From NCBI GenBank assembly GCA_958295745.1, contig OY282370.1, forward strand, positions 682,001 through 746,000: a stretch of DNA of 64,000 nucleotides, read 5' to 3'. Both the position numbers and the translations under genes were made by a program. This DNA is from an uncultured Acidimicrobiia bacterium. Its GTDB lineage: Bacteria > Actinomycetota > Acidimicrobiia > Spongiisociales > Spongiisociaceae. Shown piece after piece: positions 39,436 through 45,685 of the stretch. Every line of letters begins with the position of its first letter. The first letter of the stretch is position 1. The notes below the pieces were generated by a model. It did no database searches, had not been told where the DNA came from, and saw only the letters and a list, made by a program, of their open reading frames with translations.

Positions 39436-40182
39436 TTACCCTCGTGCTTCTGCGCGCCGGACCCGGAGCACCTCGAAGCAGGCCAGCGCCGCCGCCACCG
39501 ACGCGTTGAGGCCGGCCGCACCCGCCGTCATGGGAATCGACACCATCTCGTCGAGGCGCTGCCGCACCAGACGGCCCAGACCCCGGCCTTCGGCCCCCAC
39601 GAACAGCGCCACCGGCTCGGACAGCAGGTCGAGGCCGAACAACGTCCGGTCGGCGCCGGGATCCAGACCCACCGTCCAGACCCCGGACCCGGAAGCCCGC
39701 CGGACCGTGTCCGCCACCGAAGACACCGAAGCCACCGGGAGGTGCTCGAGGGCCCCCGCCGCCGCCTTGAAGGCCAGGGCGGAGAGGGGCGCCGCCCGGC
39801 GCCGGGGCACGACCATACCCGTCATCCCCGCCGCCCAGGCCGAGCGGGCGATCGCTCCCGCGTTGCGGGGATCCTCCAGATGGTCGAGCACGAGGAGAGC
39901 CGGTTCGGGGCCGCGGGGGCGGCGGGTCAGCACTTCGTCCAGGGAGGCGAACGGGATCGGCCGGGCCTTCGCCACCAGGCCCTGGGGTGATTCGGTTGCG
40001 GCCAGCGGCCCGACCGCGTCCACCAGCTCGACCTCGGCCCCCGAACGGCGGGCCTCGGCGGCCAAACCCTCGGAATCCCGGCGGGTGCGCTCCACGTAGA
40101 GCACGGTCACCCTCCCGGCCGCCAAGGCGGCCCGGACCGCATGAACCCCCTCAACCCTACCGCCGATACCAGCGGACGCCAT
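39436..40182 (-). CDS. rlmB: 23S rRNA (guanosine-2'-O-)-methyltransferase RlmB
   Basis: A 248-residue SpoU/TrmH-family (SPOUT) methyltransferase with a short N-terminal L30e-like substrate-binding domain ('GIGGRVEGVHAVRAALAAG'). Motif 1 is 'LDHLEDPRNAGAIARSA', motif 2 'FVGAEGRGL', motif 3 'SIPMTAGAAGLNASVAAAL'. In motif 3 the usual SLNVS reads GLNAS, a mild deviation. It 2'-O-methylates a guanosine of the 23S rRNA peptidyl-transferase centre (G2251 in E. coli) or a related site. The gene overlaps the end of cysS by 26 bases, the same neighbours as in mycobacteria. Confidence 0.9.
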   Translation of the reverse strand: MASAGIGGRVEGVHAVRAALAAGRVTVLYVERTRRDSEGLAAEARRSGAEVELVDAVGPLAATESPQGLVAKARPIPFASLDEVLTRRPRGPEPALLVLDHLEDPRNAGAIARSAWAAGMTGMVVPRRRAAPLSALAFKAAAGALEHLPVASVSSVADTVRRASGSGVWTVGLDPGADRTLFGLDLLSEPVALFVGAEGRGLGRLVRQRLDEMVSIPMTAGAAGLNASVAAALACFEVLRVRRAEARG

Positions 40183-41566
40183 CGGCCGAATCTTCGATCA
40201 GTATCCCGGCCTCGGCCAGCTCGTCCCTGATGGCGTCGGCGCGGCCCCAGTCGCGGGCTTCCCTAGCCCGCCTGCGGGCCGCCACCAGACCCTCTACCGC
40301 GGCCTCGGCGCCTTCGGCTTCCACGCCGTGGACCACCGCCAGATCGGCCAACCGCCCCGCCATATCCTCCAGGTCATCCATGCCGGAGTCGGCCAGGTCG
40401 ATTCCCAGCACCCGGGAGATCTCGCCGACCGCCGCCGACCGAGGACCGGCGTCCAGGCCGCCGTCCAACCGGGCGTTGCCCTCCCGGACCGCCTCGAAGA
40501 GCACGGCCAGCCCCCCGGCGGTGTTGAAGTCATCGTCCATGGCCTCCGCGAAGCGTTCGATCGTCCCGGGATGGGGTTCCGGCGCCGGGGTGGAACGGCG
40601 GCGAAAGGCCCGCAGCCGATCGAGGCTCGCCGATGCCTCGTCGAGGAGCCCGTCCGAGAACTCGACCGGGGACCGGTAGGCGGCCCGCAGGTAGAACAAC
40701 CGGACCGCAGGCCCCCCGTAGCGCTCGACGGCCTCGGCCAAGTCGACGACATGCCCGGTGGACTTAGACAGCTTCTCGCCCCCCAGGTTCACCATGCCGT
40801 TATGAAGCCAGTACCGGGCGAGCGGGCGGTCCGCCGACCCTTCCGACTGGGCGATCTCGTTCTCGTGATGGGGAAATATCAGGTCCGCGCCGCCCGCATG
40901 GATGTCGAAGGGCGTCCCCAGGTACTTGGCGGACATGGCCGAACATTCGATGTGCCATCCCGGACGTCCGGAGCCCCAAGGGGAAGGCCAGTGCGGCTCA
41001 CCCGGCTTGGCGGCCTTCCACAAAGCGAAGTCCAGCGGATCCTCCTTGTCCGCCCCCGGCTCGACCCGCGCTCCGGCCCGGAGCTCGTCCACGTTGCGCC
41101 CCGAGAGCTTCCCGTAACCGTTCAACCTCCGCACCCTGAAGTAGACATTGCCTCCCCCCGGATAGGCCAGGCCGCGTTCGATCAGCCCGGCGATCATGTC
41201 GATCATCTCCGGAATGTGATCGGTGGCGGCCGGTTCCAGGTCGGGGTCCAGGACGTTGAGGCGCCGGTAGACGGCGCGGAAACGGTCGGCCATCTCGCGG
41301 GCCAGCGCCTCGGTGGTGACACCGAGGCGGGCGGCATTGGCGATGATCTTGTCGTCCACATCGGTGATGTTCTGGACGTACAAGACCTGCCAGCCCTTCC
41401 ATATGAGGTAGCGGCGGATCACGTCGAAGACCACCGCGCATCTTCCGTGGCCGAGGTGGGGCGCCGACTGGACGGTCGGACCGCATACGTACATGCCCAC
41501 CCGCCCCTCCTGCAGAGGTTCGAAGGGCCGGCGCTCCCGCCCCAGGGTGTTGTAGACCGCGATCAC
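40157..41566 (-). CDS. cysS: Cysteinyl-tRNA synthetase
   Basis: A 469-residue class I synthetase with 'YVCGPTVQSAPHLGHGRC' (zinc Cys and HIGH-type motif), 'GRPGWHIECSAM', 'HHENEIAQSE' (zinc ligands) and the KMSKS loop 'GGEKLSKSTGHVV'. The start is GTG at 41566, nine bases after GGGGAG, giving the family start 'VYNTLGRERRPFEPL'; the open frame runs to 41683 but would add residues that overlap ispF. Second-last gene of the disA-carD-ispD-ispF-cysS-rlmB cluster. Confidence 0.93.
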   Translation of the reverse strand: MIAVYNTLGRERRPFEPLQEGRVGMYVCGPTVQSAPHLGHGRCAVVFDVIRRYLIWKGWQVLYVQNITDVDDKIIANAARLGVTTEALAREMADRFRAVYRRLNVLDPDLEPAATDHIPEMIDMIAGLIERGLAYPGGGNVYFRVRRLNGYGKLSGRNVDELRAGARVEPGADKEDPLDFALWKAAKPGEPHWPSPWGSGRPGWHIECSAMSAKYLGTPFDIHAGGADLIFPHHENEIAQSEGSADRPLARYWLHNGMVNLGGEKLSKSTGHVVDLAEAVERYGGPAVRLFYLRAAYRSPVEFSDGLLDEASASLDRLRAFRRRSTPAPEPHPGTIERFAEAMDDDFNTAGGLAVLFEAVREGNARLDGGLDAGPRSAAVGEISRVLGIDLADSGMDDLEDMAGRLADLAVVHGVEAEGAEAAVEGLVAARRRAREARDWGRADAIRDELAEAGILIEDSADGVRWYRR

Positions 41567-41657
41567 CGCCGCAGTCTCCCCGAACGGACGGGCCTGTCGA
41601 GCCGGCGCCGGCGGCATGGCAGATATGAACGAGACACTGAGGGGGTAGGGTAACCGG

Positions 41658-42197
41658 TCAGGCCGAGAATGAGCATGGAGCACCCGAGGCGGGAGACTCC
41701 AGCAGCAGGGCCGCCGCCCAGGCCGCCACCCCCTCGCCCCGTCCTGTGAACCCCATCCCGTCGGTGGTGGTCGCCTTCACGGACACCCGGTCGACCCCCA
41801 CTTCCAGAACGGCGGCCAGGGCGGCCCTCATCTCCTCCCGGTGCGGGGCTATCCGCACCGTTTCGGCTATCACCGTGAGGTCCAGGTTCCCGACCACCAT
41901 CCCGGCCGATGCCACCAGCGCAGACACCCGGGCCAGCATCTCCATGCTGTCGGCGCCCTGCCAGCGTTCGTCCTCCGACGGGAAGTAAGCCCCTATGTCG
42001 CCGAGGGCCGCCGCTCCGAGGAGGGCGTCGGCGGCGGCGTGGGCGGCCGCATCCCCGTCCGATGCGGCGGCCAGCCCGCGCTCCTCGTCCACCACCACCC
42101 CGGCCAGTTTGAGCGGGGGCGGCCCCCCGAAACGATGGGCGTCGAACCCGAAACCTATGCGGGGCGGCGGGCGGGCGCGGGGGGCGCCGACGTCCAT
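41658..42197 (-). CDS. ispF: 2-C-methyl-D-erythritol 2,4-cyclodiphosphate synthase
   Basis: A 179-residue trimeric enzyme of the MEP isoprenoid pathway. Metal ligands are in 'GFGFDAHRF' (DxH) and the later His of 'SDGDAAAHAAADALLGAAAL'; the product loop 'GDIGAYFPSEDERWQGADS' and the C-terminal signature 'VKATTTDGMGFTGRGEG' are intact. One base separates it from ispD upstream, so they are coupled. An extra 15 residues at the C-terminus ('ESPASGAPCSFSA') go beyond the family length. Confidence 0.93.
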   Translation of the reverse strand: MDVGAPRARPPPRIGFGFDAHRFGGPPPLKLAGVVVDEERGLAAASDGDAAAHAAADALLGAAALGDIGAYFPSEDERWQGADSMEMLARVSALVASAGMVVGNLDLTVIAETVRIAPHREEMRAALAAVLEVGVDRVSVKATTTDGMGFTGRGEGVAAWAAALLLESPASGAPCSFSA

Positions 42198-42198
42198 G

Positions 42199-42870
42199 TC
42201 AGGCCCGGCGCCCGCGGCGGCGGAGCACGGCCTCCGCCAGCAGCAGGTCCTCCGGATAGGTGATCTTCATAGCCGCCCGGTCACCGGGCACCGTCCCCAC
42301 CCGGCCTCCGATCCTCTCGACCATGGCGGCGTCGTCGGGCGTCCTCCCCGGCCATCCCTCCGCATAGGCGGCGTGGGCGCGGCGCAGCACCTCGGCGCGG
42401 AACACCTGGGGGGTCTGGGCCGCCACCACCTCTGTACGGCTCAGGGTTTCCATCACCCGGCCATCCGCCGCATCCCGGCGCTTGACGGCGTCCGTGATCG
42501 GCACCACCGGTATCACCCCGTCGAGCCCCCCCTTCCGGAGTACCTCGTACATCCCGGCGATCATGGCGGGCGGGGCGAGAGGGCGGGCGGCGTCGTGAAC
42601 CGCCGCGATCGCCGCCTCCGGATCCACCTCTGCCAGGCCGCGGGCCACCGAGATGCGCCTTTCCGGACCCCCTTCCACCCCGCCGGGCACCGGACCCACC
42701 ACCACCACCCGGACGGCGCCGCTGTCGAGCAGGGCGTCTCTGGCCCATTCCCAGAGCGGCCTTCCCCCCAGCGCCGCCTCGTGCTTGGCGCCGCCGAAAC
42801 GAATCCCCTTCCCGGCGGCCACCACGATGCCCCAGACGGGGCCCCGGACCGGCTCTCCGGGGATGCTCAT
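42199..42870 (-). CDS. ispD: 2-C-methyl-D-erythritol 4-phosphate cytidylyltransferase
   Basis: A 223-residue nucleotidyltransferase of the MEP pathway. It has the nucleotide-binding loop 'VVAAGKGIRFGGAKHEAALG', 'VHDAARPLAPP', 'VPITDAVKRR' and 'RTEVVAAQTPQVFR', followed by 'TPDDAAMVERIGGRV'. The loop reads AKHEAAL where PKQFL is usual; the Lys is kept. It is upstream of ispF and 69 bases downstream of carD. Confidence 0.9.
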   Translation of the reverse strand: MSIPGEPVRGPVWGIVVAAGKGIRFGGAKHEAALGGRPLWEWARDALLDSGAVRVVVVGPVPGGVEGGPERRISVARGLAEVDPEAAIAAVHDAARPLAPPAMIAGMYEVLRKGGLDGVIPVVPITDAVKRRDAADGRVMETLSRTEVVAAQTPQVFRAEVLRRAHAAYAEGWPGRTPDDAAMVERIGGRVGTVPGDRAAMKITYPEDLLLAEAVLRRRGRRA

Positions 42871-42939: not shown

Positions 42940-44538
42940 CTAGCCGGAGTTCTCCGTAGGAACCCCCATCCGCTTGAGCATCAGCTGCAAGGCCCGCTCG
43001 AGGCGCATGGCGGCGGTTTGGGTGTCCTCTTGAAAAGCGAAGGCGATCTCGCTGGTGAGCGTCACCCGGGCCCGTGAGGTCATCCGTTTCAAGGCCGGCG
43101 AGATCCCCTTCGTATGCTGGGCGTGGGTAAGGTCGCGGATCACTTCGGCCACTTGGTGGATGTCGCCGGAGGTCATCTTCTCGTTCAGAACCTTGTACCA
43201 GCGGCTCCAGTTGCTGCCCGAGTCCTGCGGATCTTCCTTTTCTATCTTCCGCAATACCTTCCCGGCGCCCGTCTTGGAGATCACCAACCTGATGCCGCTA
43301 CGGTCGATCGTGTCGACCGGTATCTTGACCGTGAGCTGCTCGATGGCGGCCTCGAGTATGAAGCATTTGCGCGGGGAGTCGTCTATTTCCACGTCGACCA
43401 TATCGGTTATCACCGCTGCTCCGTGATGGGGATGCACCACCTTGTCGCCCACTTTGAAGGCCGGCTTCTTCCTGGTGCCGGAGGCCCCGGATTTGGTTCG
43501 TGAAGAAGACCGCGCCGGCCGCTTTCGCGCCGGCCGCTTCCGGGCCGGTCGCTTCCGGGTCGGCGGGGAAGCCGGCTTGCGGGCCTTGGACTGGGGAACG
43601 GACTTCTTGGCAGCGGGCTTCTTGGCGGCGGCCGACTTCACAGACTTCCCCCCCGACGACGGATCCGCCTTAGCGGTCTTAGCCGTCTTAGCCGTGGTCT
43701 TAGCCGTTTTAGTCGTTTTAGCGGTGGTCTTAGCGGTCTTAGGAGGAGCGGTGGTCTTAGCAGTCTTAGCGGTTTGAGTCGTCTTAGCCGTTTTAGCCGT
43801 CTTAGCGGTGGTCTTGGCCGTCTTAGCCGTCTTGGACTTAGGGGCAACCCCCTTACCAGATGGCTTCCCGTCGGACGAAGACGAACCGGCTTCACCGGCC
43901 TTCGACCGGGCGGCGGCCGACTTCACAGACTTCCCCCCCGACCCCTTCCCGTCCGACGACGCACCCGCCTTGGCAGCCTTGGACTTGGGAACGGACTTCT
44001 TGGCAGAGGGCTTCTTGGCGGCGGCCGACTTCACAGACTTCCCCCCCGACCCCTTCCCGTCCGACGACGCACCCGCCTTGGCAGCCTTGGACTTGGGAAT
44101 GGACTTCTTGGCAGAGGGCTTCTTGGCGGCGGCCGACTTCACAGACTTCCCCCCCGACCCCTTCCCGTCCGACGACGCACCCGCCTTGGCAGCCTTGGAC
44201 TTGGGAATGGACTTCTTGGCAGAGGGCTTCTTGGCGGCGGCCGACTTCACAGACTTCCCCCCCGACCCCTTCCCGTCCGACGACGCACCCGCCTTGGCAG
44301 CCTTGGACTTGGGAATGGACTTCTTGGCAGAGGGCTTCTTGGCGGCGGCCGACTTCACAGACTTCCCCCCCGATCCCTTCCCGTCCGACGACGGATCCGC
44401 CTTGGCGGCCTTGGATTTCGATGCGGTCCGCCCGGCCGTCGAGGCGGCGGCCCCGGTTTTCTCCGAATCGGCGGGCTTCGAGGGTTTCGGAGAGGCCTTC
44501 TTCGGAGAGGCCGGGGCTGGAGCTCTGGTGTCGGTCAT
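42940..44538 (-). CDS. carD: CarD-family RNA polymerase-binding regulator with a long basic repeat tail
   Basis: A 532-residue protein whose last 170 residues are an ordinary CarD: RNA polymerase-interaction domain from about residue 361 ('VGDKVVHPHHGAAVI', 'LTVKIPVDTIDRSGIRLV') and a helical DNA-binding domain ('NWSRWYKVLNEKMTSGDIHQ', 'LTSEIAFAF'). CarD stabilises the open promoter complex, notably at rRNA promoters. The first 360 residues are unusual: Lys/Ala/Ser-rich with a 36-residue repeat (about 46-207), then a KTAK/KTTAK stretch (about 229-296) and RKRPARKRPAR. It resembles AlgP or histone H1-like tails. Actinobacterial CarD is normally about 160 residues. Start ATG 44538; the position between disA and ispD is conserved. 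Confidence 0.9.
   Translation of the reverse strand: MTDTRAPAPASPKKASPKPSKPADSEKTGAAASTAGRTASKSKAAKADPSSDGKGSGGKSVKSAAAKKPSAKKSIPKSKAAKAGASSDGKGSGGKSVKSAAAKKPSAKKSIPKSKAAKAGASSDGKGSGGKSVKSAAAKKPSAKKSIPKSKAAKAGASSDGKGSGGKSVKSAAAKKPSAKKSVPKSKAAKAGASSDGKGSGGKSVKSAAARSKAGEAGSSSSDGKPSGKGVAPKSKTAKTAKTTAKTAKTAKTTQTAKTAKTTAPPKTAKTTAKTTKTAKTTAKTAKTAKADPSSGGKSVKSAAAKKPAAKKSVPQSKARKPASPPTRKRPARKRPARKRPARSSSRTKSGASGTRKKPAFKVGDKVVHPHHGAAVITDMVDVEIDDSPRKCFILEAAIEQLTVKIPVDTIDRSGIRLVISKTGAGKVLRKIEKEDPQDSGSNWSRWYKVLNEKMTSGDIHQVAEVIRDLTHAQHTKGISPALKRMTSRARVTLTSEIAFAFQEDTQTAAMRLERALQLMLKRMGVPTENSG
43916..44400 (-). repeat. 108-bp tandem repeats in the carD tail
   Basis: The same octamer phase (GCCGACTT) recurs at 43916, 44024, 44132, 44240 and 44348, exactly 108 bases (36 codons) apart, and the intervening sequence is almost identical from copy to copy. 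A sixth, partial copy lies near 43627. Each unit encodes 'KSVKSAAAKKPSAKK' plus 'SIPKSKAAKAGASSDGKG'. Such exact repeats can gain or lose units by recombination while keeping frame. Confidence 0.95.
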
Positions 44539-44629
44539 CTATCTAATTCTACCGGAAAACCCGATACACCGGTAAGGCCGTCCGGCCCGCGGTTTTGGAA
44601 ATCCGGGTGCGCACCCCGACCATGAACGA

Positions 44630-45685
44630 TCAGGCCAACCATGGATGGCGGTGCCGGCGCAGGATCTGGTCGAGGTAGCGCCGCAGAGCCTGGGCCCGGG
44701 CCTCACCCACCCCGGACACCTGGCTCAGGTCCTCCACCGTAGCCAGCAGTATCTTGTGGGCGTCGCGAAAATGCCGCACCAGATCCTCGCGCACCGAGCC
44801 GGGCAGACCGGGCGCCCCGCTGACCAACCGGTAACCCATGGGCCGGGCCTCGGTGTCGGCGGGCTCCAGACCCAGGAGGCGGCATACCCTTTTGGCGTCG
44901 TTCAGATCGACCAGCGGCATCTCCGCCAACCCCCTGAGCACCCCGTCCGCTTCTTCCTCGTCTTCGTACAGGTAATCCCGGGCCACCAGCTTCCGCAGCT
45001 CCGTCACCCCGTTCACCAGGTGAGCGCGCTGCAGGTCGGCCACGCGACCCTCGTCGCCGAGACCGACGGCCAGCCGCCCCACCCGGCGGCCGATGCGGAG
45101 GACCAGCTCGGTCCGCTGGAGCACCCTCATCGCGTCGCCCAGCACGGTCTGTTCGTTGACTTCCAACCGGGTGAGCTCCTCCTCCGCCTCGGCCACCTGG
45201 CGGCGGAAACGCTCCAGCGTCTGGAGTTCCTGGTTGATGAGCACCAAGAGCTCGGACGGATCACGGAGGGGGTGCTTCCTGTCCTGGTAGAACAACGTGG
45301 CCTGCCCGCGTTCTTCGCTGACGGCCAAGATCGGCCGGCCGGTCATCCGGGCCATCCGTTCGGCGGTGCGGAAACGGGCGCCCGTCTCCTCGGTTTCGAT
45401 GGCGGGGTCGGGGATGAGATGGGCGTTGGCGCGCAGGATCCGGGTCCCGTCCTCGTCCAGGATGACGGCGCCGTCCATCTTGGCCAGCTCCGCCAGGCGA
45501 GCCGAGGTGAAATTGGCGCCGTGGAGGATGAATCCGTCGGTGGTAGCCGACTCGACCTCGGGACCGGCGCCGATCACCACCAACGCCCCGTTGCCCTGCT
45601 GGCCGATCCGTTCGAGCGCAGTGCGCAACGCGGTACCGGGGGCGACGCGGGACAGTACTTCGAGGAAAGCAGCCGGTTCGGTCAT
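44630..45685 (-). CDS. disA: DNA integrity scanning diadenylate cyclase DisA
   Basis: A 351-residue protein that makes c-di-AMP from two ATP. The N-terminal DAC domain has D71-G72-A73 and, at 104-106, Arg-Phe-Arg where DisA proteins normally have Arg-His-Arg; 'TAERMARMTGRPILAVSEE' follows. The central helical spine covers about 150-275. The C-terminal (HhH)2 DNA-binding domain ends with 'LSQVSGVGEARAQALRRYL'. DisA scans DNA and its synthesis falls at branched structures. The changed central residue of the RHR motif could affect ATP phosphate contacts. The gene heads the conserved disA-carD-ispDF cluster, with 91 bases to carD. Confidence 0.93.
   Translation of the reverse strand: MTEPAAFLEVLSRVAPGTALRTALERIGQQGNGALVVIGAGPEVESATTDGFILHGANFTSARLAELAKMDGAVILDEDGTRILRANAHLIPDPAIETEETGARFRTAERMARMTGRPILAVSEERGQATLFYQDRKHPLRDPSELLVLINQELQTLERFRRQVAEAEEELTRLEVNEQTVLGDAMRVLQRTELVLRIGRRVGRLAVGLGDEGRVADLQRAHLVNGVTELRKLVARDYLYEDEEEADGVLRGLAEMPLVDLNDAKRVCRLLGLEPADTEARPMGYRLVSGAPGLPGSVREDLVRHFRDAHKILLATVEDLSQVSGVGEARAQALRRYLDQILRRHRHPWLA

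Follow-up and report, generated by a model that had tools for sequence, protein, structure and literature searches.

The closest described relatives of the protein analyzed here are the CarD proteins of myxobacteria. Myxococcus xanthus CarD is described as the combination of an RNA polymerase (RNAP)-binding CarD domain and a disordered, basic DNA-binding domain of the HMGA type (PMC4374960), the corresponding basic domain of Anaeromyxobacter and Vulgatibacter CarD is described as H1-like (PMC8156234, PMC9304148), and the HMGA domain of CarD can be exchanged for human H1 or for the C-terminal region of H1 (PMC8156234). In one reporter test, the activity of M. xanthus CarD fell about 4-fold when the HMGA domain was removed (PMC4374960). 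These studies also state that CarD and CarG orthologs are found only among the Cystobacterineae (PMC9304148) and that the available genomes suggest the presence of the HMGA domain only in CarD-containing myxobacteria (PMC4374960). A second precedent is provided by actinobacterial TopA, the lysine repeats of which lower dissociation from DNA and stabilize TopA on it; such repeats are also reported there for HrdB, Ku and HupS (PMC7398561).

The window, i.e. the whole 64,000-nucleotide stretch of DNA that was analyzed, contains an open reading frame with an ATG start that encodes a single protein of 532 residues followed by a stop codon (Table 1). The sequence-only reading of this DNA had proposed a CarD protein with a repeat-built, H1-like tail, and this proposal was borne out: Pfam and fold comparisons confirm the core, and the tail comprises 359 residues with a net charge of +86 and three kinds of repeats. 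The tail is N-terminal, an end that the title of that reading left unstated. In the core, the RNAP-interaction domain CarD_TRCF_RID is recognized with an E-value of 2.9e-12 (46.9 bits against a cut-off of 23) and CarD_C with an E-value of 4.4e-20 (71.9 bits). The wedge tryptophan is invariant in 23 of 23 aligned CarD cores; it corresponds in role to W86 of Thermus CarD, the residue that wedges the promoter bubble (PMC4593161). The closest solved structure to residues 360-532 is that of Mycobacterium tuberculosis CarD (E about 1e-28), and an AlphaFold model of the core (mean pLDDT 89.5) has its best fold matches in 8hvr_H and 6edt_M, both CarD in RNAP complexes (TMq 0.76-0.77). Thus, by domains, wedge tryptophan and fold, the core is complete and belongs to the CarD_CdnL_TRCF family, and at 532 residues with a tail of 359 the protein does not have the compact CdnL-type form without extra domains. 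The core (42940-43461) forms a long terminal branch (0.41), its nearest relative being about 70% identical, and is altered at positions that its relatives conserve.

Table 1. Positions in the window of the tailed carD gene, its parts and its neighbors.
Feature	Position	Strand	Basis
ispD, ispF, cysS, downstream neighbors	40157..42870	-	PF01128, PF02542, PF01406
Whole gene, tailed CarD, 532 residues + stop	42940..44538	-	ORF and Pfam domains
CarD_C, residues 428-513, containing wedge Trp (residue 444) in NWSRWYK	43000..43257	-	PF21095
CarD RNAP-interaction domain (Tudor-like), residues 361-419	43282..43458	-	PF02559 (CarD_TRCF_RID)
N-terminal H1-like tail, residues 1-359, net +86	43462..44538	-	Composition
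RKRPA x3, residues 328-342, in Arg-rich segment adjoining core	43513..43557	-	Repeat analysis
KTAKTT-type short repeats, residues 236-292, net +15	43663..43833	-	Repeat analysis
36-residue (108-bp) repeats, residues 41-210, unit KSKAAKAGASSDGKGSGGKSVKSAAAKKPSAKKSIP	43909..44418	-	4.7 copies, 98% match
TAGAAT, -10-like hexamer ending 7 nt before ATG	44546..44551	-	Sequence
disA, upstream neighbor (91 bp gap)	44630..45685	-	PF02457, PF10635

Several lines of evidence indicate that the tail is coding sequence. Its frame contains no stop in 359 codons, against 7, 17, 1, 1 and 15 stops in the other five frames; its third-position GC content is 0.79, compared with 0.82 in the core and 0.85-0.88 in the neighboring genes; and its ratio of lysine to arginine is 85:13, as opposed to 34:144 in the core and four neighboring genes of this GC-rich genome. 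Together with the tails of the same composition in relatives (see below), the open frame, third-position GC and lysine bias argue that the tail is more than a product of chance. Antisense reading frames of 255-283 residues that overlie it (43774-44625, plus strand) appear to arise incidentally from the way the repeats are composed.

With regard to the start site, the sequence-only reading had pointed to a start codon near residue 350 as the alternative to a translated tail. The in-frame start scan finds no such codon: after ATG1 come GTG codons at 61, 97, 133, 169, 205 and 300, followed by GTG363 inside the RNAP-interaction domain, and there is no start codon between residue 301 and the core. 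Exclusive production of a shorter protein from one of these GTG codons is exceedingly improbable, even with each GTG in the tail being preceded by a G-run that could serve as a weak Shine-Dalgarno site, given that a promoter-like hexamer immediately precedes ATG1 and the vicinity of the core has none, that all starts up to residue 300 leave at least 60 basic residues, and that GTG363 would cut off Phe361, the second residue of the core and nearly invariant in the core alignment. No Shine-Dalgarno-like sequence precedes ATG1, and TAGAAT at a distance of 7 nt fits a leaderless transcript. Actinobacteria frequently use leaderless starts. Of 51 loci from the order, 25 have a TA[CGT]ANT hexamer within the 40 nt ahead of the start; the same pattern turns up in 1 of 283 windows taken from within tails, in 0 of 34 taken immediately ahead of the core and in 3.1% of shuffles. 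The other 26 upstream regions, including those of genus g4 of the window's family, have no -10-like hexamer. Translation is probably initiated at the first ATG, as far as the sequence tells.

The tail (K85 R13 D10 E2 A77 S63 T30 P29 G35; pI 11.45) is of the Lys/Ala/Ser/Thr/Pro type and H1-like in composition. The residues F, W, Y, L, M and C together account for a single position and none is aromatic, and the composition points to a disordered segment. Besides the 108-bp units it contains KTAKTT-type repeats built from units of 9-30 bp and a 15-bp RKRPA unit present in 3.2 copies. The Arg-rich segment beside the core can be aligned across the family; the distal part of the tail is variable. 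A search of the whole tail for AT-hooks (RGRP) found none, GRP being absent altogether, and no Pfam family, HC2 (PF07382) included, matched it at an E-value of 0.01 or better. The near-identity of the repeats raises the question of whether their number was collapsed or expanded in the assembly, so that the true length of the tail would not be 359 residues, and the assemblies of the relatives G006, G037 and G041 do have N runs inside the CarD tail. We regard such an error as very unlikely here, because the window's own assembly (3.3 Mb) consists of 9 contigs and the gene is internal to one that exceeds 1.5 Mb; moreover, the presence of the tail is independent of copy number. By locus, the N runs inside the CarD tail repeats of relatives are seen at L006, L010, L102 and L276, and the lengths of such genes in assemblies may be unreliable.

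Within its genome the tailed protein stands alone. CarD_C has a single match, in this protein, and PF02559 matches only it and one frame of 1146 residues, presumably Mfd; the tailed protein is, therefore, the genome's only free-standing CarD. A few Acidimicrobiia genomes, among them G118, G121, G085 and G172, have two CarD_C proteins each. HU, TopA and three sigma factors of the window's genome carry no such tail, and a protein search of the genome with the tail as query returned this gene only. We also considered that HU might compensate for the CarD tail and rejected the idea: no trade-off is seen, HU being without a Lys-rich tail in the window's genome and in the frames read from relatives, including G005, the CarD of which has no Lys-rich tail. 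This comparison covered 19 of 30 loci, 10 having no HU frame by regular expression and L184 having a long non-HU frame.

The relatives, mostly Acidimicrobiia MAGs, show how widespread such tails are. We scored an N-terminal tail when at least 40 residues with at least 12% lysine precede the core, counted from the first ATG (else GTG or TTG; from the beginning of the open frame if truncated), and a C-terminal tail when at least 30 residues with at least 15% lysine follow core position 158. Three samples were read: (i) from the order, 54 of 59 genomes (own included) with a CarD match plus four more, 58 in total and all read; (ii) from families of the class beyond this order, 81 proteins encoded by 79 genomes out of 108 with a match, the unread ones being mostly of family f12; and (iii) from outside the class in the same phylum, 48 proteins encoded by 47 genomes out of 91 with a match, picked as best matches and longest frames. 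L253 was excluded from the counts, its placement having failed. An N-terminal tail is present in 41 of the 58 CarD proteins of the order (f1 12/15, f2 7/8, f3 2/9, f4 4/4, f5 3/3, f6 0/6, f7 6/6, f8 7/7) and a C-terminal tail in none. In the other Acidimicrobiia families the pattern is inverted: N-terminal tails are absent from all 81 proteins and 20 have a Lys-rich C-terminal tail (f19 9/9, f24 5/5, f9 3/9, f10 1/1, f14 1/1, f11 1/4), 19 of them of a Lys/Ala/Pro (K/A/P) type. Outside the class the counts are 0/48 and 1/48, respectively. No protein read has tails at both ends. In the comparison of CarD length in related genomes suggested by the earlier reading, tails recur at either end of CarD, and 17 of the 58 order members, including genus g3 of the window's family, fall short of the N-tail rule; four of these 17, namely G005, G014, G029 and G158, are marginal, truncated or ambiguous cases.

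Several individual cases qualify these numbers. CarD proteins with a C-terminal K/A/P tail are found at L087, L088, L080, L083 and L077, among others (families f19, f24, f10, f14 and f9), and several C-tails run off the sequence stretch taken, so that their lengths are minima. G071 has a C-tail by the rule that is rich in Lys/Asp/Glu rather than Lys/Ala/Pro, the f11 C-tail is not K/A/P-rich, and G296 has a K/A/P-containing C-tail of 139 residues that, with 13% lysine, lies below the rule. A tree of the quick kind, built from 187 CarD cores and weak at many of its forks, requires no fewer than 11 switches in tail state, five for N-tails and six for C-tails, numbers that do not separate gain from loss; for this tree G014 (121 residues, 11% lysine), which falls short of the rule, was set to N by hand, and G005, G029 and G158 were left uncounted. 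The occurrence of tails at either end in relatives suggests that tying CarD to DNA is of use and evolved more than once.

The N-tails of relatives are similar to that of the window in composition and position and different in sequence and length, which ranges from 5 to 359 residues across the order. The 41 N-tails of the order have more lysine than arginine in 39 cases, a positive net charge in all 41 and, taken together, five aromatic residues. The pooled compositions of N- and C-tails are alike (K 24/25%, A 27/34%, P 13/14%). Nine of ten proteins from genus g4, in the window's family, differ from H1 in that the distal tail half carries a net negative charge. These data bear on the alternative that the tail is mostly neutral low-complexity sequence generated by repeat slippage, tolerated at the free N-terminus of CarD and of little function. 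The near-identical 108-bp units, the wide range of lengths and the tail-less members of the order (all of f6 and most of f3) are in line with it; slippage does not, however, predict the preference for lysine in GC-rich genomes, the near absence of aromatic residues or the fact that CarD tails of other families, attached at the other end, have converged on this composition, and such runs are rare elsewhere, the one KKxAAKK site in the window's genome lying inside the tailed CarD gene. We therefore consider neutral slippage unlikely.

Similar runs occur on other proteins of the order. In other genomes K/A/P tails are found at the C-terminus of ribosomal protein L21, of a wax ester synthase/DGAT-like protein and of a coiled-coil-like protein (loci L292, L294, L284, L285, L279, L280 and L289, with L21 at L292 and the coiled-coil-like protein at L279), which indicates a small shared repertoire of Lys-rich runs that is not exclusive to CarD. 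Alternatively, the tail could bind another polyanion such as rRNA, nascent RNA or polyphosphate, and localize or condense CarD instead of tethering it to promoters. The tails on L21 and the coiled-coil-like protein would agree with this, as would the reported link of the H1-like AlgP to polyphosphate granules (PMC9239181). On the other hand, the site of action of CarD is promoter DNA, and where tails of this kind have been tested (on CarD, TopA, Ku and HupB) they work through DNA, making a different polyanion quite unlikely as the principal target. The HC2 cut-off is reached by six of eight N-tailed relatives scanned and by none of three C-tailed proteins; Extensin_1 also matches, and the HC2 matches may be compositional. 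The CarD of G154 (L125:890-1798) has an IF2_N-like domain before a KA-repeat tail (29 bits in one scan and 25.2 bits, slightly below the cut-off of 25.3, in another). IF-2 as the source of the KA repeat is unsupported, the N-terminal parts of IF-2 in six genomes being without such a repeat.

Combining the domain, composition and distribution data, we consider it reasonably likely that the cationic N-terminal tail serves as a non-specific DNA tether on a housekeeping CdnL-type CarD and prolongs the stay of CarD and RNAP at promoters. In this model, (i) the folded core would bind the RNAP beta lobe and (ii) wedge the upstream edge of the promoter bubble, both as in Mycobacterium and Thermus, (iii) the 359-residue tail, presumably disordered and DNA-binding, would hold CarD and in that way also RNAP on DNA near promoters, and (iv) this tethering would prolong the lifetime of the open complex. 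The precedents on which we base the tether are the removal of the HMGA domain from myxobacterial CarD and its replacement by H1, and the lysine repeats of TopA. The occurrence of similar tails at either end suggests that the charge of the tether matters more than its geometry, and the order members without a scored tail imply that CarD of the order can function without one. Counted against the tether are the acidic distal halves in g4, the lack of a Pfam match (HC2 included) for the window's tail and of an HC2 match for the three C-tailed proteins scanned, the upstream regions without a hexamer and the runs in relatives on proteins without an obvious role on DNA such as the wax ester synthase. 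A bolder extension, which we offer as conceivable though doubtful, is that in Acidimicrobiia the addition of an H1-like tail, at one end or the other, has repeatedly made the sole housekeeping CarD a transcription factor of a chromatin-like kind, that the state of the nucleoid would thereby set open-complex stability at sigma-A/rRNA promoters, and that slippage of the 108-bp repeats would adjust the length and strength of the tail.

The suggestion of the sequence-only reading that this would be a new design is not supported in full, as myxobacterial CarD already has a CarD domain and a basic tail in the published descriptions (PMC4374960, PMC8156234, PMC9304148); the link to chromosome compaction raised there is a conjecture. 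What appears to be new, judged from the sequences compared, is that the tail is N-terminal, that it is carried by the only CarD of the genome and that in Acidimicrobiia such tails arose repeatedly, at one end or the other. Neither a tailed CarD outside the myxobacteria nor repeated occurrence of tails at either end was found in the literature searched, most subscription papers lying outside its reach. The CarD-plus-HMGA/H1 architecture, published as restricted to Cystobacterineae (PMC4374960, PMC9304148), is now found in a second phylum. The tailed and untailed homologues constitute a natural series for asking whether DNA tethering benefits a general RNAP activator and whether the end to which the tether is attached matters.

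The design of the window's protein can be compared with four known systems. Mycobacterial CarD/CdnL has the same two-domain core with the conserved wedge tryptophan and is tail-less at about 160 residues, in contrast to the 532 residues found here; mycobacterial carD also adjoins ispD, as the window's carD does. Actinobacterial TopA, HupB/HupS, HrdB and Ku likewise have lysine-rich, H1-like repeats on a protein that acts on DNA, the carriers being different. HC2 (PF07382) is matched by relatives but not by the window's tail, and this is a low-complexity match that is no proof of descent. The myxobacterial CarD proteins (M. xanthus, Anaeromyxobacter dehalogenans, Vulgatibacter incomptus) share with the window's protein an RNAP-binding-type domain combined with a long basic tail. 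The two differ in four respects: (i) the myxobacterial tail is C-terminal, whereas that of the window is N-terminal (and C-terminal in other Acidimicrobiia families); (ii) myxobacterial CarD exists beside a separate tail-less CdnL, whereas here the tail is on the only CarD; (iii) myxobacterial CarD works with CarG, whereas nothing CarG-like is present among the neighbors disA, ispD, ispF and cysS; and (iv) the AT-hooks of the M. xanthus-type tail are missing. By analogy, the window's CarD is likely to work like the myxobacterial tailed CarD without being a member of that group.
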